Source: an uncultured Acholeplasmatales bacterium (GTDB lineage: Bacteria; Bacillota_I; Bacilli_A; Acholeplasmatales; Anaeroplasmataceae). Taken from it: 33,180 nucleotides of DNA. Within the stretch, counting starts at the first letter, position 1. Every line of letters starts with the position of its first letter. The stretch spans positions 1 to 33,180 of the forward strand of contig CALUXI010000016.1 in NCBI GenBank assembly GCA_944324705.1, read 5' to 3'. A model generated the notes under the pieces. It was not told the origin of the DNA. It worked only from the letters and a program-made list of their open reading frames with translations, and did not search any database. This document shows, piece by piece, positions 5,881 to 23,676 of this stretch. Position numbers and translations under genes: made by a program.

Positions 5881-5910
5881 AAAAGCTTACTTTGAGTAAG
5901 CTTTTATTTT
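5881..5910. terminator. Bidirectional terminator between ampS-type gene and clpB
   Basis: An 11-bp perfect stem, AAAAGCTTACT/AGTAAGCTTTT (5881-5891 with 5895-5905), has the loop TTG. A/T runs on both sides allow use by both convergent genes. The clpB stop codon (5904-5906) overlaps the stem. Confidence 0.88.
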
Positions 5911-8015
5911 ACAATTATAGTTAATTCGTTTCTTGTTATATCAAGAACATAAGGAATATTTGGCTTAATATCGCCATTTATTATTTTAGTAGCAATATAA
6001 GTTTCTATATATTTAGTGATAAATCTTTTAATTGGTCTAGCACCATATGTTATATCAAAACTTTGTTCTAATATCCAATTCTTTAAGTTATCAGTAAATG
6101 TTATATTTATATCTTGATGTAATAAACGAACATCTAAATCATGCAATAATTTAGTAACAATTTTAAGTTGAACTGTCTTGTCTAGAGGTTTGAAAGTAAT
6201 AATTTCATCAATACGATTTAAAAATTCAGGTTTAAAGTATTGTTTTAATAAATTTAAAACTTCAGTTTCTCCTTTATCTTGCAATAATAATTCACTACCT
6301 AAATTAGAAGTCATTATGATGATTGTATTTTTAAAATCAACAGTACGACCTTGACTATCGGTTAGTCTACCATCATCTAATATTTGTAATAAAATGTTGA
6401 AAACATCATGATGAGCTTTCTCGATTTCATCAAACAAAATTATAGAATAAGGATTACGTCTGATTTTTTCGGTCAATTGACCACCTTCGTCATATCCTAC
6501 ATATCCTGGAGGAGCACCAATTAATTTAGCTACACTATGTGGTTCCATAAATTCTGACATATCAAGTCTCACAATGTGAGTTTCACTATCGAATAATGCT
6601 TCGGCAAGTGATTTAGCAAGTTCGGTTTTACCTACACCAGTAGGACCTAAGAACAGGAATGAACCAATTGGTTTATATTCATCTTTAATACCAGCTCTTT
6701 GTCTTAAGATGGCATTAGAAACAAGTTCAACAGCATTATCTTGACCGATGACTCTTTTCTTTAATGTTTCAGCTAAGTGTAATATTTTTTCACGCTCGCC
6801 TTGCATTAATTTAGAAACAGGAATATTAGTAGTTTTAGAAACAACCTCAGCAATGTCGCTTTCATAAACAGTATCAGAAATCATTCTATTTTCTTTATTT
6901 TGTTGTTGAAAATTATTAATTTCTTTTTGTAAGTCAGGAATTATTTTGTATTGAAGTTCGCTAGCCTTTTTGTAATCACCATTATTGAAGGCCTTATCTA
7001 GTTCAAATTTCATTTGATCTAATTTTTTCTTTTCTTCTTTATAAGTATTTAATTCCTTAATTTCTTTTTGCCACTCAGCTGTTAATTCAGCTTGTTTTTT
7101 AGTTTCAGTTTCTAATTCTTTTTGTAAGTCATTTAATCTATTTTTACTTGCTGGATCAGTTTCCTTTTTTAAAGCCATTTCCTCAATTTTTAACTGAGTA
7201 ATCTTTCTTTCACAGTCATCAAGTTCAACTGGTCTTGAATCTATTTCCATTCTTAAGGAAGCACAAGCTTCATCGATTAAATCGATTGCTTTATCTGGTA
7301 AGAAACGATCAGTAATGTAACGATTAGCCATAGTAGCAGCAGCTACAATAGCATTATCAGTAATATGAACACCATGATGCATTTCAAATCTTTCCTTGAT
7401 ACCTCTTAATATGGAAATAGTGTCTTCAACGCTAGGTTCATTGACTAAAACCTTTTGAAATCTTCTTTCAAGAGCACTATCTTTTTCAATATATTCTCTA
7501 TATTCCTTTAAAGTAGTAGCACCTATACAATGCAATTCACCCCGCGCTAACATAGGCTTTAACATATTGCCAGCATCTAAAGCACCATCAGCTTTACCAG
7601 CCCCAACAATTAAATGGATTTCATCAATAAACATGATGATCTTACCATCAGATTCTTTAACTTTATTTAAAACAGCTTTTAATCTTTCTTCAAATTCACC
7701 TCTAAATTTAGCACCAGCTACAAGAGAACCCATATCTAATTCATAAATTTCTTTATCTTTTAATGATACAGGAACATCATTAGCAACTATACGTCTTGCT
7801 AAACCTTCGATAATTGCTGTTTTACCGACACCAGGTTCACCAATTAGAACCGGATTATTCTTAGTTTTACGAGTTAATATTTTTATTATATGTCTAATTT
7901 CTTCGTCCCTGCCTATAACAGGATCGATTTTACCTTGACGAGCAAGTTCAACAATATTGCGCCCAAATTTTTCAAGTACATTTGGATCATTTTGATAATT
8001 TGGTTCTTGTTGCAT
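5904..8015 (-). CDS. clpB: Chaperone disaggregase ClpB lacking the N-domain
   Basis: This 703-residue AAA+ disaggregase works with DnaK to recover aggregated proteins. NBD1 has Walker A GEPGVGKT (59-66) and Walker B IIMFIDE (126-132). A charged coiled-coil middle domain (about 260-385) is what separates ClpB from ClpA and ClpC. NBD2 has Walker A GPTGVGKT (457-464) and the pore loop GYVG. Typical ClpB is about 860 residues; this one starts where the linker after the N-domain would be, as in mycoplasma ClpB. The truncation is genuine: a strong AGGAGG ribosome binding site and a CIRCE promoter lie directly upstream. HrcA repression with heat induction is expected. Confidence 0.95.
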
Positions 8016-10381: not shown

Positions 10382-12106
10382 ATGAAAAAAATAGTTACAT
10401 GGTTCTGTGCAATATTAAGTGTATGTTTAATTGGTATTGCATTGACAAGTTGTGAACAAAATGGTGGAGAGAATGAACAAAACGTTCATACTGTTACATT
10501 CTACGATCAAGATAAAACAACAGTATTGAAGAAAGCAGAAGTAAATGATGGTGAAAAAGTAGAGAGTTGGACACCAGATAATAAAGAAGATGCGACATTT
10601 GATGGTTGGTATGCTACACCTACTTTAAATATCCCATTTGATTTTAATCAAACTATTACAGAAGATAAATCAGTATTTAGTAAATGGAATAGTTTAGCTC
10701 AAGATCCTAATACTTGGGAAATTGTTGGTAATTTATCAGGTGATTTAATTTCATCAGATTGGGGTAAAGGAAATAAAGACAGTGATATCTTTGAATTAGA
10801 TAAAGTTAAAGGTAAACCTAATGTATTTGAAGGAACATTTGGTTTAGTTAAAGGTAATGAATTCCAATTTGCCGTATTAGAATTTGATGAAAGTGGTACA
10901 CCAGTATGGAAATATCAAATGGGTGGCGGATTACTTGATCAAGGCGATAACGAATGGTTCTCATCTGAAGGTAATTATCTAGATCCATCTGCTGGTTATA
11001 AAGAAAATATCATAGTTGAACAAGGTGGTTTATATAAATTTACTTTAACAACAGATTTAGTAACTCCTACAGCTGGTATAATTGAAGTTGAAAGAGTTGG
11101 AGAATTTAGCCTTGATACAGCATTTAGTCCATTCATTGGTGGTACACCTGCAGGTGGAGCAAATACTACAAATTATGCTGATTTAAAATTTGGGGTAGGT
11201 AAAGCTGAAGGAGATAACATTGTTTGGACTGGTGAATTCAGTTTCAATGCTGGTGAATTATTACAAATTTACATGGTAGATAAGGATTATACTGTTCAAT
11301 TAAGTGGATTAAAGAAGAACATTGATGCTGAAAATACAGATAGTGAAAATGTTAACTTAAATAGTGTTAATGAAATTGAAATTATTAACAGTGGTAAATA
11401 TGAAGTTAAAGTTACAGCAAACAAGAATGTAGCTAAATCAATTACTGAAGATGAAGTTATAGTAAATAAAGATACATACGGAAATTATGAGAGTTACAAA
11501 GTAGCAATCAATAGAATTGGGGATTATGAAGTAACTGATGGCGTAACTTATGATACATTTAATTTCAAATATAATGGTAAGGGTACTGATTATACAGTTT
11601 ATTTAAGAGATGGAGCAAAATTCCCTAATGTTAAAGCACCTACATTAACTGAAAATGAAGCACTAGCTGGTTGGTATTATGAAGTTGATGGTGAAAAACA
11701 TGGTATCAGCTATAATAGGGAAATTTATAAAACTACTGGCGCTACATATGATGTAAATTATGAAGTTGTAAGTGAAACTTCTAAAGATACACGTGATTGG
11801 AAATTAACAGGTCAAGCAACAGTTAATGGTGTTGAGACAACTTGGAGTGATTTTACAAGTTTAACACAAATAAATAATTATACTTATGAAGCTACACTTG
11901 AAGTTGCTGCTAATGCTGAATTCCAAATTGTTAGTTATTATTATGGCATCCATCAAGGTGTATTCTTAAGAGGTGGTAATGTAGTTAGTGAAGGTATTAC
12001 AGACCCAGCAACTGTTAGCAATATTAAGATTGTTAATGCTGGTACTTATAAATTAGTATTAAATTCATTGACTAATGAAATTACAATTACACCTGTTAGT
12101 GAATAA
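10382..12106 (+). CDS. Surface lipoprotein, InlB repeat plus SusE/F-like domains
   Basis: This 574-residue protein has a lipoprotein signal peptide ending in LTSC (lipidated C24). Residues about 35-103 are an InlB/Flg_new-type B repeat (FDGWYATP ... SKW). Three beta-rich segments follow: about 108-237 (WEIVGNLSGD ... WKYQMGGG), about 240-350 and about 470-574 (WKLTGQATVNG ... FQIVSYYYGIHQG). The first and third have the pattern of SusE/SusF or alpha-glucan-binding modules: an 'I-V-G' start, a W near the middle and an 'F-Q-I/F' strand. No catalytic site is seen. As first gene of the operon it probably captures starch fragments at the cell surface (inference). AGGAGG lies at 10372-10377. Confidence 0.75.
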   Translation: MKKIVTWFCAILSVCLIGIALTSCEQNGGENEQNVHTVTFYDQDKTTVLKKAEVNDGEKVESWTPDNKEDATFDGWYATPTLNIPFDFNQTITEDKSVFSKWNSLAQDPNTWEIVGNLSGDLISSDWGKGNKDSDIFELDKVKGKPNVFEGTFGLVKGNEFQFAVLEFDESGTPVWKYQMGGGLLDQGDNEWFSSEGNYLDPSAGYKENIIVEQGGLYKFTLTTDLVTPTAGIIEVERVGEFSLDTAFSPFIGGTPAGGANTTNYADLKFGVGKAEGDNIVWTGEFSFNAGELLQIYMVDKDYTVQLSGLKKNIDAENTDSENVNLNSVNEIEIINSGKYEVKVTANKNVAKSITEDEVIVNKDTYGNYESYKVAINRIGDYEVTDGVTYDTFNFKYNGKGTDYTVYLRDGAKFPNVKAPTLTENEALAGWYYEVDGEKHGISYNREIYKTTGATYDVNYEVVSETSKDTRDWKLTGQATVNGVETTWSDFTSLTQINNYTYEATLEVAANAEFQIVSYYYGIHQGVFLRGGNVVSEGITDPATVSNIKIVNAGTYKLVLNSLTNEITITPVSE

Positions 12107-17626: not shown

Positions 17627-19108
17627 ATGGTTATAGAATTAAAACATGTGAAAAAAATATATGATAAAAATGGAATTGAAGTTGTTAAAGACTTTAATTT
17701 AACTATTGAAGATAAAGAATTTGTAGTTTTCGTAGGTCCTTCAGGTTGTGGTAAATCTACAACACTACGTATGATTGCAGGTCTTGAAGATATTACAGGT
17801 GGAACTATTAGTTTTGATGGGGAAATAATTAATAATAAATTGCCAGGAGAAAGAAATATTGGTATGGTATTCCAATCATATGCTTTATATCCTAATATGA
17901 CAGTTTATAAAAATATGGAATTCCCATTAAAGATAGCTAAGGTTCCAAAAGAAGAAAGAAAGAGAAGAATTTTAGAAGCTGCTCAAATGCTTGGTTTAAC
18001 TGAATATTTAGAGCGTAAGCCAAAAAATTTATCAGGTGGTCAACGTCAAAGAGTTGCAGTTGGTAGAGAGATAGTTCGTGATTGTAATTTATTCTTATTC
18101 GATGAACCATTATCTAACTTGGATGCTAAATTACGTGTACAAATGCGTACCGAAATTGCTAATTTACACCGTAGATTACAAAAAACTTTTATCTATGTAA
18201 CTCATGATCAAATAGAAGCTATGACAATGGCAACAAGAATTGTCATTATGTATAATGGTATAGTTCAACAAGTTGGTGCACCAAAAGAAGTGTACGATTG
18301 GCCAGAAAATATGTTTGTTGCGGGTTTTATAGGTACTCCAGCTATGAATTTTATTGAAGGTATTGTATCTGAAGATGGTTATTTTAGAAGCATTGAAAGA
18401 GATTCTACTTTAAAATCATTAACTATTGATGGTAACCCTCTTCCTGATTTTTATCGAAATACTTATAATTATGTATATGAATATAAGAGTGAAGATGCTG
18501 GTAAGAAAGCAAATATTGAAGCCATTTCAAGTTCTAAAATTGCTAAAGTTGAATATACTAATAATATTATTCTTTCTGAAGGTGCTACAGCAACCATTAA
18601 AGTTATAGCTGAAAATGGTAGTAGCAGTAATTATACAATCACATTAAAAGAGAAAAAAGAAGTTAAACCTAAAAAAGGTAGCGATGATGCTGATGTTTCA
18701 GTTGAAGAGGAAAATGTAGTAGTTGAATCAGCTGTGAAGAAAGCTTTATCTGAAGAAAAAGCAGTAAATAAAATTCAAATTAAATTACCAAAGGATAAAT
18801 TTGAATTATTGAAAGAAAATGGTTATTTAAATAAACAAGTAGTTTTAGGTATTAGACCTGAAAATATTACTGATACTTCTCATGATGGCCAAATGTGTGA
18901 TTTGGTTGTTGAATCAGCTGAATTATTAGGTTTTGAATATAATTTGATTATGGATATTTGTGGATCTCAAGTTATTTCAAGAATTAATGCAACTAATATT
19001 ATTAGACCTGGAGATAAAGTTAAATTAAGTTTTGATTTATCTAAAGCTCATTTCTTTGATAAAGAAACTACAAACCGTATTAAAGCAGGTTCTAATAATG
19101 ATAAATAG
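17627..19108 (+). CDS. Sugar ABC ATPase (MsmK/MalK type) with inserted cadherin-like domain
   Basis: This 493-residue protein powers the importer. The nucleotide-binding domain is intact: Walker [10 protein letters not shown] (37-45), Q-loop Q83, signature LSGGQ (135-139), Walker B LFLFDE (155-160), switch H193. MsmK-type proteins have about 370 residues; the extra 120 lie between the ATPase core and the C-terminal TOBE/OB part, after [12 protein letters not shown] (242-253). Residues about 261-341 fit the cadherin-like beta-sandwich pattern ([14 protein letters not shown] ... Y ... [17 protein letters not shown] ... YTITL). An acidic, lysine-rich linker follows (342-380), and then the TOBE part resumes with [19 protein letters not shown] and [10 protein letters not shown]. 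The frame is open throughout. Whether the insert affects regulation is unknown. Confidence 0.93.
18398..18742 (+). other. Inserted domain within the sugar ABC ATPase
   Basis: The DNA encodes about residues 258-372 of the ATPase: a cadherin-like beta-sandwich (about 261-341) and a charged linker. Composition resembles the surrounding gene and no direct repeats or mobile-element ends flank it, so the insertion looks old and maintained. Confidence 0.75.
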
Positions 19109-20591
19109 TCGAAAAGCAGGTCTTTTGTTACATATTAGTTCTTTACCATCTAATTATGGTATTGGTACACTTGGCAAAGAAGCATTTAAATTAATTGATT
19201 TTCTAAATGCTGCTGGTCTTAAGTTATGGCAAATATTACCATTAACCCCAACTGGTTTTGGTGATTCACCATATCAGTCATTTGCTAGTAATGCTTTAAA
19301 TTATTATTTTATTGATTTAGAAGAATTACAAGAAGAAGGCTTACTATCTAAAAATTTATGTGATGCTTTAGAATTTAGCACAAATGATAGAGTTAATTAT
19401 CAGCTAATATATAAGAATAAAACATATTGTTTAAGAGAAGCATTTACTAAATTTAGTATTAATAGTGATGAATTTAAAAAGTTTGTTAAAAGTCAAGAAT
19501 TCAATGATTATGCTATATTTATGACTTTAAAAACTAAATATAATGGAAAACCTTGGTATGAATGGCCAGAAGAATATAAGAATTATAGTTTAGACTTAGA
19601 AAATAAAGTAAAACAAGAAAATGAGTTAGAATATTATTTTTGGTTATTCACACAATATGAATTTAAAAAACAATGGGATAAATTACATCAATATGCTAAG
19701 AGTAAGGATGTAGAAATCATTGGTGATATACCTCTATACCTTTCTTATGATTCAGTTGATGTATGGAAATATAGTCAATATTTTGATTTAGATAATAATA
19801 AGCGAATGATAAATGTTGCAGGTTGTCCTCCTGATGCCTTTAGTGCAGATGGACAATTATGGGGGAACCCGGTATATAATTGGTCAAACTTAAAGAAAGA
19901 CAACTACAAATGGTGGTTAGATAGAATTAATAATACTTTAAAATATGTTGATATTTTAAGAATTGATCACTTTAGAGCATTTGATAGATTTTATGCAATT
20001 CCTAATGGTAGTCAAACAGCTAGAAATGGTAAATGGGTGGATGGACCTAAATTAGATTTATTTAAAGATATTTTAGACTATAATATTATTGCTGAAGATT
20101 TAGGTGTAATTGATGATGGAGTTAGACAATTAATGAAAGATGTCGGTTATCCAGGCATGAAAATATTAGAATTTGCTTTCGATGATAATCCTTTAAATGA
20201 ACATAAACCACGTAATTATACTCCTAATTATGTTGTATATACTGGTACTCATGATAATATGCCTCTATGGCAATATATTGAAGATTTAAGACCAGGAGAA
20301 AAACAAAATTTCTTATTCTCTCTTGCACAAGAAGCAGCTAAATTAGATTGTCGAGTAAAGGCTAATGATACGTGTGATATAGTTTGGTCAATCATTGAAT
20401 TAGCGTTTAGAAGTATTGCTAATACAGTAATTATTCCAATTCAAGATTTCTTATGTGAAGATGGAAATAGTAGAATGAATTTGCCATCTAATGTTTCAGG
20501 TTCTAATTGGTCATACCGCATTAAATCTAGTAGTTTAAGCCCTGATTTAGCAAATAAAATTAAGAAATTAGTTATAGAAAGTAATCGTTAA
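19098..20591 (+). CDS. malQ: 4-alpha-glucanotransferase (GH77)
   Basis: This 497-residue enzyme transfers alpha-1,4-glucan chains between maltodextrins, releasing glucose and making longer chains. GH77 signatures are present: [17 protein letters not shown] at the start, [34 protein letters not shown] (nucleophile Asp), IIAEDLG (acid/base Glu) and YTGTHDNMP. Length is that of a plain bacterial MalQ without extra domains. The ATG at 19098 fits the family N-terminus and overlaps the ATPase gene by 11 bases; an AGG eight bases upstream is a weak ribosome binding site. It is the last gene of the operon, with a strong terminator beginning at its stop codon. No maltodextrin phosphorylase is present here. 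Confidence 0.95.
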
Positions 20592-20618
20592 GGTTCTCAC
20601 TTTTTGAGAACCTTTTTT
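20590..20618 (+). terminator. Terminator of the maltodextrin operon
   Basis: A 10-bp perfect stem, AAGGTTCTCA/TGAGAACCTT (20590-20599 with 20605-20614), is followed by T-rich sequence. It overlaps the malQ stop codon. Confidence 0.92.
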
Positions 20619-20666: not shown

Positions 20667-20696
20667 TTGACAAAATACTATGGGGGAGGGTATAAT
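20667..20696 (+). promoter_or_regulatory. Promoter with G-tract dyad in the spacer
   Basis: A perfect TTGACA (20667-20672) and a perfect TATAAT (20691-20696) are 18 bases apart. The spacer contains ATAC-TATGGGGGAGG-GTAT, a G-tract flanked by short inverted arms. This is the layout of operators bound by the CsoR/RcnR/FrmR family. The assignment of the regulator is tentative; none is encoded in the window. Confidence 0.6.
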
Positions 20697-20722
20697 TTAT
20701 GTGGCATAAGTATGCTGCCCCC

Positions 20723-20737
20723 CGCTTTTTAAAAGCG
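20723..20737 (+). other. Small hairpin in the lipoprotein 5' leader
   Basis: CGCTTTTTAAAAGCG can fold into a short hairpin in a leader of about 90 bases. Six Cs at 20718-20723 directly precede it and are complementary to the G-run in the promoter spacer. No T-run follows, so it is not a terminator. Confidence 0.3.
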
Positions 20738-20792
20738 TAAAATTAAAAACCAGATGCTTAAATGCTAAAAATCAACAAAACAGGAGAAGAAA

Positions 20793-23624
20793 ATGAAAAA
20801 CAAAAAGTTTTTGGCAAGCTTGTTTCTTGCGATTTTTAGTGTCTTTGTATTAATTAGTTGTAAAACTAAAATGTACAATGTAAATTTTGAAGTTAATGGT
20901 GGAAGTTTTGTTCAAAGTCAACAAACAGAAGATGGAACTTTAGTTGAGCCAGCTGATCCGACAAGAGATGGTTATCAATTTGGTGGCTGGTATGAAGATT
21001 CTGAATTTACTGATCCTTTTGATTTTGCTACAGAAAAGGTAGATGGAGATACTACTTTATATGCAAAATGGGAAAAAATTGAAAATTCAGTTACTGTGGC
21101 ATTTGATACAAATGGTGGTTCTAAATTAGATAATGTTGTTATTGATGAGGGAACTACTTTAACTAAACCAACTGATCCTACTAAAGAAGGTTATAAATTT
21201 GGTGGCTGGTATAGTGATGAATCTTTAACAACAAAATTCGATTTTGCTACTAAGATTGAAAGCAATCTTACACTATATGCAAAATGGGATGTCTATACAA
21301 TTGCTGAAATTATTGAATTGTGTCAAGAATATGTTGATGAACCTTCAACAGAAAAATATGCTATTGAAGGTAAAATTGAGACAATTTCTAATGAAAGTTA
21401 TGGTAATATGACAGTTTCAGATTCTACAGGAAGTATTACTATTTATGGTTCATATAGTGAAGATGGCTCTGTTCGTTATGACGGTCTTGACAATAAACCT
21501 GTAGTTGGTGATGTTGTTGAATTCTTTGGTGTAATTCAAAACTACGGTGGTAAAACACCTGAACTTATTGATGCTTGGATGATTGGCTATTCAAATGAAC
21601 AAGGAATAGATAGTGATATCCCATCAGATCCAATAGATCCTAGTGTTGATAAAGCTGAACTTAAAACAATAGCCGAATTAATTGAACTTGCTGCTGATTA
21701 TCAAGATGGAGCATCAACGGAAAGATTTTATGTTCAAGCAGTAGTAGATAGTATTGATAATCCACAATATGGGCAAATGACTATTAGCGACGGAACAGGT
21801 ACTATATCTGTTTATGGAACTTATAGTGCAGATGGTGAATTAAGATATTCTGAATTGGATGAAAAACCAGTTGCTGGGGATATTGTTTTACTTTATGGTA
21901 CAATTCATGAATTTAAAGGTTCAGCTGAAATTTCTAGTGGTTGGATAATAGCTTTTGAAAAATCTACTCCTTCATTTGATATTAATGATTATGAAGAAAT
22001 GAGTATTGCAGATGCTCGTAAAGAAGAAGTAAATACAAAAGTTATTTTAGAAGGTGTTGTTGCTGCATACACTTATAATGCTGCCCAAAATCCAATTGGT
22101 TTTATTTTAATAGATGATACAAGTTCAATTTATGTTTATGATTCACAAATTGCCCCACAAGTAGAAATTGGTAATAAAATAAAAATTGCTGCTTCAAGGG
22201 AAAATTGGATTTTAGAAGATGAACAAACAAATGCGGCTAAGTATGGTTATGATGGTTGTATTCAAGTTGCAAGTGTATATCTTTTAGAAAATGATAAAAA
22301 TACGGATAATGTTTGGAATAAGGACTGGGTTTTAGATAGTACAGTAAAGAATATGATGAATAATGATGTTTCTCAACAAAATGACACATCATTAATTTAT
22401 AAAGTTAATGCGTTAGTAAAAGAAGTAGCAGGTTCTGGTTTCACTAATTTCTATTTCTTTGATATAGATGGTGTTACTGGTTCTTATACTTATACACAGG
22501 CTAATGGTAAAGATTTCACTTGGCTAAGAGAATTTGATGGTAAGATTTGTACAGTATATTTAATGGTATTAAATTATAAATCTGAAGCTTCAGGATTAAT
22601 ACCACGTTTATTACCTATTGAAGTAATAGATGAAAATTATCAATTTGATTTAAATAATGCACCACAAATGGTTTTAGATTATTATGTAGCAGATAATTTT
22701 AAAGTTGATACATATTATGCAAATCCTAATTTAGAATTACCTACAAGTGTTTCTAACGAGTTGTTGGGTTTTGAAAATGTTAAGATTGAATATAGTTCAA
22801 ATAATCCAGCTATTACATTTGTAAATAATGAAGAAACAAATAAAACTTATATGAATATTGTAGATTTAAGTGTTAGTAGAGAAGTTATTATTACAGTTAA
22901 AGCAACTTACGAAGAATATACAGCAAGTGGCGAATATCATATAAATATTGGTAATCTTGATAGTTTTGCAAGTGTAACTGTTGCTGAAGCTATTAATGCT
23001 GATTTAGAAACTGAAGTTACAGTAAGAGCTATTGTTGGTCCTTCATTAGTCAATAGAGATGGTTTCTATTTAATGGATGAAACAGGAATGATTGCCATTA
23101 CTACTGATACTGAAACTTTAGGTAGTTTGAATTTAGGTGATGAAGTAATTATTAAAGGTACTAGAACTCAATTTGGCACTGATACAGCAGCTTCTAAACC
23201 TGGACAATCTGTTTTATTAGATTGTAAAGTATTAGTTAATTTATATGGTGATAACCCTATTCCTACTAACAATTTTATAGAAGGTAAATCTATCAAAGAT
23301 CTTTATGAGTTAGATTATACAGAAGATCATACTACAGAAGTTTATTTAGTAAGAGCTAAGATTGAAGTAACTGAAACTCCATTCTATACTTCTATGAAAA
23401 TATTAGACCCTGTTAATCTAAATGAAGAAGGTCAAAACTATACAATTAATCTTTATAGCTCAAGTGCTAATCAATATAGTTGGTTATTTGATTTTGCCGG
23501 TGAAGAGGTAACTTTAGCTATTGCGCCATGTAATTGGAATAAGAAAGATCGCTATGCAGGTTGCGCATTATTCGTACAAACTAATGATGGGCACATAGTT
23601 TATAATACATTGAATTTTAATTAA
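20793..23624 (+). CDS. Large surface lipoprotein with InlB repeats and OB-like domains
   Basis: This 943-residue protein has a lipoprotein signal ending in LISC (C23). Two InlB/Flg_new-type repeats follow (about 28-93 and 99-165; GYQFGGWYEDSEFTDPFDFA and GYKFGGWYSDESLTTKFDFA). Then come two clearly homologous OB-like units (about 169-266 and 292-390), both starting TIAE(I/L)IEL and containing MT(V/I)SD.TG.I..YG.YS.DG. A third such unit lies at about 403-500, a divergent one at 505-615, an Ig-like segment at 622-719 and two more OB-like units at 726-818 and 830-940. No catalytic site or C-terminal anchor is seen. OB-like modules could bind nucleic acid or sugar; the ligand is unknown. It is monocistronic with a perfect promoter and terminator. 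Confidence 0.78.
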   Translation: MKNKKFLASLFLAIFSVFVLISCKTKMYNVNFEVNGGSFVQSQQTEDGTLVEPADPTRDGYQFGGWYEDSEFTDPFDFATEKVDGDTTLYAKWEKIENSVTVAFDTNGGSKLDNVVIDEGTTLTKPTDPTKEGYKFGGWYSDESLTTKFDFATKIESNLTLYAKWDVYTIAEIIELCQEYVDEPSTEKYAIEGKIETISNESYGNMTVSDSTGSITIYGSYSEDGSVRYDGLDNKPVVGDVVEFFGVIQNYGGKTPELIDAWMIGYSNEQGIDSDIPSDPIDPSVDKAELKTIAELIELAADYQDGASTERFYVQAVVDSIDNPQYGQMTISDGTGTISVYGTYSADGELRYSELDEKPVAGDIVLLYGTIHEFKGSAEISSGWIIAFEKSTPSFDINDYEEMSIADARKEEVNTKVILEGVVAAYTYNAAQNPIGFILIDDTSSIYVYDSQIAPQVEIGNKIKIAASRENWILEDEQTNAAKYGYDGCIQVASVYLLENDKNTDNVWNKDWVLDSTVKNMMNNDVSQQNDTSLIYKVNALVKEVAGSGFTNFYFFDIDGVTGSYTYTQANGKDFTWLREFDGKICTVYLMVLNYKSEASGLIPRLLPIEVIDENYQFDLNNAPQMVLDYYVADNFKVDTYYANPNLELPTSVSNELLGFENVKIEYSSNNPAITFVNNEETNKTYMNIVDLSVSREVIITVKATYEEYTASGEYHINIGNLDSFASVTVAEAINADLETEVTVRAIVGPSLVNRDGFYLMDETGMIAITTDTETLGSLNLGDEVIIKGTRTQFGTDTAASKPGQSVLLDCKVLVNLYGDNPIPTNNFIEGKSIKDLYELDYTEDHTTEVYLVRAKIEVTETPFYTSMKILDPVNLNEEGQNYTINLYSSSANQYSWLFDFAGEEVTLAIAPCNWNKKDRYAGCALFVQTNDGHIVYNTLNFN
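20874..21287 (+). repeat. Tandem InlB-type repeats in the lipoprotein gene
   Basis: Two copies encode about 65 residues each (20874-21071 and 21087-21287). They share the GGWY and LYAKW motifs and nearly identical stretches around them. Confidence 0.75.
21297..21962 (+). repeat. Duplicated OB-like units in the lipoprotein gene
   Basis: Two copies of about 98 codons (21297-21590 and 21666-21962) share the TIAE, SYGNMT/QYGQMT and YSEDG/YSADG motifs. A short, proline-aspartate-rich linker (PSDPIDPSVDKAEL) separates them. Confidence 0.7.
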
Positions 23625-23630
23625 TTATTT

Positions 23631-23676
23631 AAGGTAATATTAAGCTAATAATGGCTTGATATTGCCTTTTTCTTTT
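23631..23676 (+). terminator. Terminator of the large lipoprotein gene
   Basis: A 15-bp stem with two G-T pairs (23631-23645 with 23654-23668) is followed by a T-rich run. Confidence 0.88.

Follow-up and report, generated by a model that had tools for sequence, protein, structure and literature searches.

The analysed window is a 33,180-nucleotide stretch of DNA from an uncultured Acholeplasmatales bacterium. It encompasses a maltodextrin operon (LacI regulator, B-repeat lipoprotein, GH13, binding protein, permeases, MalK and MalQ) and, adjoining malQ, a gene whose real open reading frame encodes a lipoprotein of 943 aa with a lipobox (LISC, Cys23) read from the sequence. This product, called here the OB protein, carries InlB B-repeats next to its anchor followed by a series of OB units interrupted by an Ig-like domain (Table 1).

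Table 1. Features of the OB protein gene and of its flanks (window positions; + strand where so marked)
Feature	Position	Strand	Basis
Terminator-like hairpin after malQ, parting the maltodextrin operon from the OB gene	20590..20614	+	terminator scan
Promoter-like site TTGACA-18-TATAAT, 12/12 consensus bases	20667..20696	+	promoter scan
Conserved 5' leader RNA, core 20707-20759	20702..20767	+	pattern search, hand alignment
Six-OB lipoprotein gene, 943 aa	20793..23624	+	ORF, Pfam, model
Signal peptide and lipobox (LISC, Cys23)	20793..20861	+	sequence
InlB B-repeat 1, aa 27-97	20871..21083	+	Pfam; boundaries approximate
InlB B-repeat 2, aa 98-165	21084..21287	+	Pfam; boundaries approximate
OB1, aa 166-275; extra unit, OB2 relative	21288..21617	+	Pfam, identity to OB2, alignment
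OB2, aa 288-392	21654..21968	+	Pfam, AlphaFold2 model, structure match
OB3, aa 396-504	21978..22304	+	model, structure match, profile
OB4, aa 505-616; most conserved unit	22305..22640	+	model, profile, weak structure match
Ig-like sandwich, aa 618-722	22644..22958	+	two models, structure match
OB5, aa 723-822; OB3 duplicate	22959..23258	+	model, structure match, profile
OB6, aa 823-943; OB4 duplicate	23259..23621	+	strand pattern, profile; without own structure match
Terminator-like hairpin after the OB gene	23631..23668	+	terminator scan

Pfam recognised two stretches of the InlB B-repeat family (Flg_new, PF09479; E 7e-40, 135 bits against a cut-off of 27) and two stretches of the tRNA_anti-codon OB family (43 bits against a cut-off of 27), and no leucine-rich repeat. 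Neither Pfam (E up to 1) nor NCBIfam (E up to 0.01) revealed an enzyme or nuclease domain (EEP, 5'-nucleotidase, SNase or other) in the protein, in agreement with the earlier remark that nothing in it looks catalytic. Among NCBIfam models, those of internalins and one of a neuraminidase matched through the B-repeats far below cut-off, the B-repeat model itself being the only one of these not far below its threshold. A sub-cut-off OB match was detected at aa 724-789, and the YgiW/YdeI stress OB family (NF033674) scored 16.6 bits, not reaching its curated cut-off of 35. No Pfam or NCBIfam model spanned the whole protein.

The AlphaFold2 model of aa 286-943, built from seven sequences (pLDDT 78.9, pTM 0.56; OB1 lies outside the modelled part), showed five units of five strands, a helix following the third strand in each of them, and one Ig-like sandwich. 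When the model was re-aligned to solved chains, OB2 matched human AsnRS with Z 11.4, the matching portion of which we take to be the OB part of that enzyme, OB3 matched p204 HINa and archaeal RPA (Z 10.6 and 10.5, respectively) and OB5 matched YgiW (Z 11.1, 1.8 A over 82). In a second model, restricted to OB4 and the Ig-like domain (pLDDT 68), OB4 gave weak OB matches with a best Z of 7.2, a value below 8 that, according to the structure tool, may mean merely a common arrangement, and the Ig-like domain matched sandwich domains of AbnA (Z 8.3-8.9). The best Foldseek E-value (7.5e-9) was obtained with p204 HINab bound to dsDNA, at a TM-score of only 0.13-0.20 and 10% identity.

No structure match was found for OB6 alone, and its profile matched those of OB1, OB2 and OB4 with 95-98% probability. 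Profile comparison linked OB3 to OB5 (99.5%) and OB4 to OB6 (97.8%), and both OB1 and OB2 to OB6 (95-96%) and to OB5 (90-91%). The 100% probability between OB1 and OB2 says little, as the two profiles share members; OB1 was 44% identical to OB2 and also matched the Pfam OB family. The profile of the Ig-like domain matched none of the OB units. OB2, OB3 and OB5 are thus predicted OB folds well supported by their likeness to solved ones, and OB4 and OB6 have weaker support from strand pattern, profile likeness and less strong matches. OB1 is a relative of OB2. The protein is made of six OB units and one Ig-like domain, OB3-OB4 and OB5-OB6 are an internal duplication, and the order OB1, OB2, [OB3-OB4], Ig, [OB5-OB6] reads as a two-OB module duplicated about a hinge. 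The sequence-only reading had counted two clear and up to six possible OB units; its observation was confirmed, since six emerged from the Pfam, AlphaFold2, structure and profile matches (three good, OB4 weak, OB6 without a structure match of its own), and the two InlB repeats, the Ig-like part and the lipid anchor that it had described were all borne out.

Matches to the OB protein at E <= 0.001 were found in 20 of the 55 genomes of the window's family, 16 of them with E <= 1e-100. At E <= 1e-10, it was detected in 19 of 160 genomes of the order and, partial matches included, in 47 of 395 genomes of the class, representing 21 of 192 genera. An alignment of 35 proteins was composed without the split or stopped genes of G036, G046, G069, G187 and G257, without G006 and without matches lacking retrieved neighbourhoods. 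In this alignment, OB2-OB6 and the Ig-like domain had a mean occupancy of 0.94-0.99, defining a core of OB-OB-OB-Ig-OB-OB, and OB1 had an occupancy of 0.06. The sixth OB unit has been added in the window's species and in G003; G006 and G007 carry their own second OB, which a B-repeat separates from the rest. OB4 was the most conserved unit, and it holds all three positions at which 90% or more of the sequences have K or R, a pattern that speaks against a nucleic-acid ligand. The OB protein is a widespread surface family assembled from known parts. The five split or stopped copies may reflect decay or assembly error; in G069 the gene consists of two adjacent frames (L062, 9815-12033, - strand), for which the same two explanations apply. 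By eye, lipoproteins of relatives in L036, L038, L039 and L034 also pair Ig-like parts with OB units and lack an obvious nuclease, and they perhaps constitute a second family of OB surface proteins.

All OB units of the protein were acidic, with a pI of 4.05-4.45 and a net charge of -6 to -17 each, and so were all 35 aligned relatives (pI 4.05-4.78, some values coming from fragments or over-long frames). Such acidity is poor for the binding of a polyanion, yet it is not decisive because two other exported proteins of the window, the B-repeat lipoprotein (pI 4.4) and the binding protein (pI 4.2), were about as acidic; it may be a habit of the organism. The uniform acidity of the OB units and relatives is the main objection to a nucleic-acid ligand and speaks for an OB/Ig scaffold that binds protein, peptidoglycan or envelope glycan and has no nucleic-acid role, the RNase neighbourhood described below being a lineage-specific chance. 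The similarity of OB5 to YgiW, a periplasmic OB protein that is not known to bind nucleic acid, points in the same direction, as does the lack, by eye, of any gene recurring beside the OB gene in 22 neighbourhoods of other families, close relatives aside. Against it stand the two different adjacent arrangements of OB and RNase genes and the fact that, of 16 family genomes encoding the OB protein, 14 also have the RNase. We consider this envelope scaffold a serious contender, nearly as likely as a scaffold for nucleic acid.

The position of the gene directly after malQ might suggest a starch- or maltodextrin-binding lipoprotein of the upstream operon, the polysaccharide ligand that the sequence-only reading had named beside DNA. 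A terminator-like hairpin and a promoter-like site separate malQ from the OB gene, and the operon is not kept beside the OB gene in relatives. In G001, the OB gene is located between a transporter and the same abhydrolase-nudix-GlpK genes, with the maltodextrin operon genes on another contig. The operon's own lipoprotein was near full length in 7 of the 55 family genomes, and in all five other same-genus genomes having both, it was encoded on a different contig from the OB gene. MalQ was not found in 5 of the 16 genomes with the OB protein, two of which (G036 and G046) are only 72-77% complete. The adjacency of operon and OB gene is not conserved and not linked by descent, and a maltodextrin role, largely refuted by synteny and distribution, is hardly credible.

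Two further features of the operon were observed. Its first gene (10382-12106, + strand) encodes a lipoprotein in which the only Pfam domain is one B-repeat, just below cut-off; this protein possibly binds starch. MalK (17627-19105, + strand) is 493 aa long, and some 110 additional residues around aa 265-375 resemble, by eye, an extracellular-type beta domain inserted before the OB/TOBE part of MalK.

A ClpB-like gene (5904-8015, below the ClpB cut-off) was located near the OB gene in the window and in G001 and directly beside it in four genomes of genus g5, which marks an old common position of the OB gene. Several other settings were considered and rejected. The plasmid collection gave no match and PADLOC detected no anti-phage defence. 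Purine auxotrophy as a driver does not track with the OB protein, since 9 of the 16 genomes encoding it had purF above cut-off; the own genome, which is one of the nine, gives no sign of a purine need, a point against the nucleic-acid reading. An EEP nuclease as partner was dismissed too: of 14 genomes searched, 10 had PF03372 matches, and every one fell within a frame of 251-377 aa, too short for a fusion to an OB array of such size.

The search for neighbouring nucleases in related genomes, proposed by the sequence-only reading, was productive within the family. A barnase-type RNase domain (PF00545) was above cut-off in 17 of its 55 genomes, and the RNase, a secreted protein, was present in 14 of the 16 genomes with the OB protein. 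With thresholds of E <= 1e-100 for the OB protein and the Pfam cut-off for PF00545, 14 genomes had both, two only the OB protein (G006 and G017), three only the RNase (G002, G049 and, barely, G040) and 36 neither. This co-occurrence was significant (Fisher 1.6e-8), also after stratification by genus (P 0.007, 14 observed against 10.9 expected); genomes within one genus are not independent. Within single genera, the association reached P 0.024 in g5 and was not significant in g1 (0.46) and g3 (0.33).

The two genes were adjacent in eight genomes, in two different arrangements. In six g5 genomes the RNase gene was convergent to the OB gene (gap 275-289), and in two g3 genomes it was divergent and upstream (gap 133-149). 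In one more g5 genome, G043, the OB and RNase genes stop 105 and 149 bases short of contig ends, and beside the RNase gene lies that of an H+-pyrophosphatase 90% identical to the one of G047, which makes G043 compatible with the g5 arrangement. In the window's genus, RNase and OB gene were on different contigs in all five genomes having both. In G004, an RNase lipoprotein gene directly follows a pot-type (polyamine) transporter set (L094, 8222-15446, - strand).

All five g5 RNases tested were lipoproteins combining the PF00545 domain with a B-repeat; the one g3 RNase tested was without it. The G047 RNase, the one compared with solved structures, matched barnase (E 1.1e-24), and an E, two R and an H, which we take to be the barnase active-site residues, were invariant in all 16 aligned RNases (16 of the 17 above cut-off, leaving aside G040 and the sub-cut-off g4 matches). 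Outside the window's family, no PF00545 match was found among the 160 genomes of the order, including three genomes of family f2 with the OB protein, and a profile of the 16 RNases detected none near the OB gene in the 22 neighbourhoods of other families, several of which end at contig ends. The link between OB protein and RNase is real but family-limited, and the nuclease expected near the OB gene was found inside the family and not in the 22 neighbourhoods beyond it.

The charge of the RNases allows another arrangement, in which the acidic OB array would serve the RNase as anchor or modulator, docking its catalytic domain on the cell surface and not holding its substrate. Barstar is an example of such a charge match with an RNase. 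Among five RNases from gene-adjacent genomes, the last 100 residues had a pI of 8.6-9.0 in four and 7.8 in one, opposite to the acidic OB protein, but the RNase domain of the own genome is itself acidic (pI 4.35) and no RNase was found in the 22 neighbourhoods from other families, so we regard docking as unlikely. Still less probable is the capture of polyamines, in which the acidic protein would concentrate these cations for a Pot-type transporter. In G037 (g3), the OB gene is followed, on its own strand, by a pot-type set in which PotA is above cut-off and a PotD-like protein has its best match there but below cut-off; G036 (g3) has the same layout, and the position of the G004 RNase gene fits as well. 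These are only three genomes, two of one genus, and the transporter set was not seen in the other neighbourhoods.

The region upstream of the OB gene contains a conserved leader. Both in the window and in G069 it comes just behind a promoter-like site, although the scan that reported such sites yielded, overall, about as many as shuffled sequence (22 sites against 19.7). The leader is composed of a stem P1, a loop CCCCC, a hairpin P2 and a loop TAAAATTAAAA, and the core common to G000, G001, G004, G006 and G007 reads CCCCCG-hairpin-AAAATTAAAA, with the stem on its flanks. In G003, the gene start that matches lies at a contig end, on a different contig, and has the same leader before it; with this case inferred across contigs, all six same-genus genomes with the OB gene have the leader. 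It was also identified in two of three genomes of family f2 (G063 and G069, absent in G066) and was not found within 260 bases upstream of the other OB genes in 30 of 30 examined, some starts being uncertain. A pattern search of the 160 order genomes gave 15 matches in 13 genomes, eight before the OB gene and seven elsewhere, compared with three for the reversed control; five of the seven (all except those of G149 and G150) were inspected and had no leader-like setting.

In the hand alignment of the six genus sequences, which biases pair counts towards the drawn structure, 47 of the 48 cells of P1 were paired; the changes comprised a double one (G-C to A-T) and several single ones. For the outer part of P1, 29 of 30 cells were paired, and sliding it reduced this to 8-18 of 27-30. 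In P2, all six sequences kept the three basal pairs, and the higher pairs varied, some failing. Folding z-scores were -4.0 for G004, -2.2 for G000, -1.4 for G001 and -1.0 for G003; for G006 (0.3) and G007 (0.7) the drawn stem was not the best fold, and the two f2 leaders scored -1.1 and 0.6. In G063 and G069, a longer hairpin overlaps the 3' side of P2 (z -3.9 and -3.0); the simple terminator scan did not report it, though folding shows it, and it could compete with P2 as in attenuators. No Rfam 15 family reached its gathering score for the leader and nothing credible was found. The leader is structured and gene-specific, possibly a riboswitch or attenuator, and is a candidate regulatory RNA with one target gene, as far as the pattern search shows.

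Where OB folds are known outside the cell, they mainly assist nucleases as helper domains. The six OB units, several of which resemble OB domains that bind nucleic acid, and the co-occurrence with the RNase, together with two adjacent arrangements in eight genomes plus one compatible, argue for a scaffold that captures its ligand, probably nucleic acid, at the surface and has the RNase as its probable partner in the window's family; the acidic charge and the absence of any partner common to the class count against it. We favour this reading tentatively, as it falls somewhat short of an even chance. The lipid-anchored, non-catalytic scaffold would stand on the cell surface, with the InlB repeats as spacers near the anchor, and the OB array would hold extracellular nucleic acid, most likely RNA, close to the membrane. 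In the window's family, cutting of the held RNA would fall to a second surface lipoprotein, the one with the barnase-type RNase domain, and transporters would import the cleavage products. Such a system would be a split form of ExeM/SWAN-type nucleases, which carry OB and nuclease in one chain. A more specific form, in which two lipoproteins graze on RNA, the OB scaffold capturing and the tethered barnase cutting, with an undescribed riboswitch-like leader controlling the scaffold in the window's genus and one other family, is rather doubtful. The earlier interpretation of the protein as a scavenging or adhesion scaffold was partly supported. A conserved surface protein made nearly entirely of OB units, without a recognised enzyme and present in many uncultured small-genome Bacilli, would suggest that capture and cutting can be split, and OB scaffold and RNase form a concrete, testable pair.

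Among the papers searched, none joined OB-fold, InlB and lipoprotein, and the searches for OB-fold with barnase, or extracellular ribonuclease with barnase or InlB, gave nothing on this OB protein family. Its parts have parallels in several known systems. With internalins it shares the InlB B-repeats, two of which form a spacer near the anchor, but no leucine-rich repeats were found and an OB array is present instead. Tandem OB pairs are common to the OB protein, HIN-200 sensors and RPA; the HIN-200 likeness is at the level of fold, given the low TM-scores and identity, with no kinship shown. The fold of OB5 is similar to the YgiW/YdeI family, whose NF033674 cut-off was not reached. The OB protein itself is not a barnase. 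Its putative partner genes encode barnase-type RNases above the PF00545 cut-off with the active-site residues kept; unlike barnase, these RNases possess signal peptides resembling those with a lipobox, and most have a B-repeat or atrophied-Ig part in addition.

The nearest counterparts are YhcR, SWAN, SsnA and ExeM, likewise secreted or anchored surface proteins with OB domains. The OB domain lies beside the nuclease in SWAN (PMC4118848) and in SsnA (PMC9744736), and deletion of the two-OB region of ExeM abolished nearly all activity (PMC6085458), so that an OB pair can be essential for an extracellular nuclease. In contrast to these four proteins, no nuclease domain was found in the chain described here, which combines more OB units with an Ig hinge and a lipid anchor.
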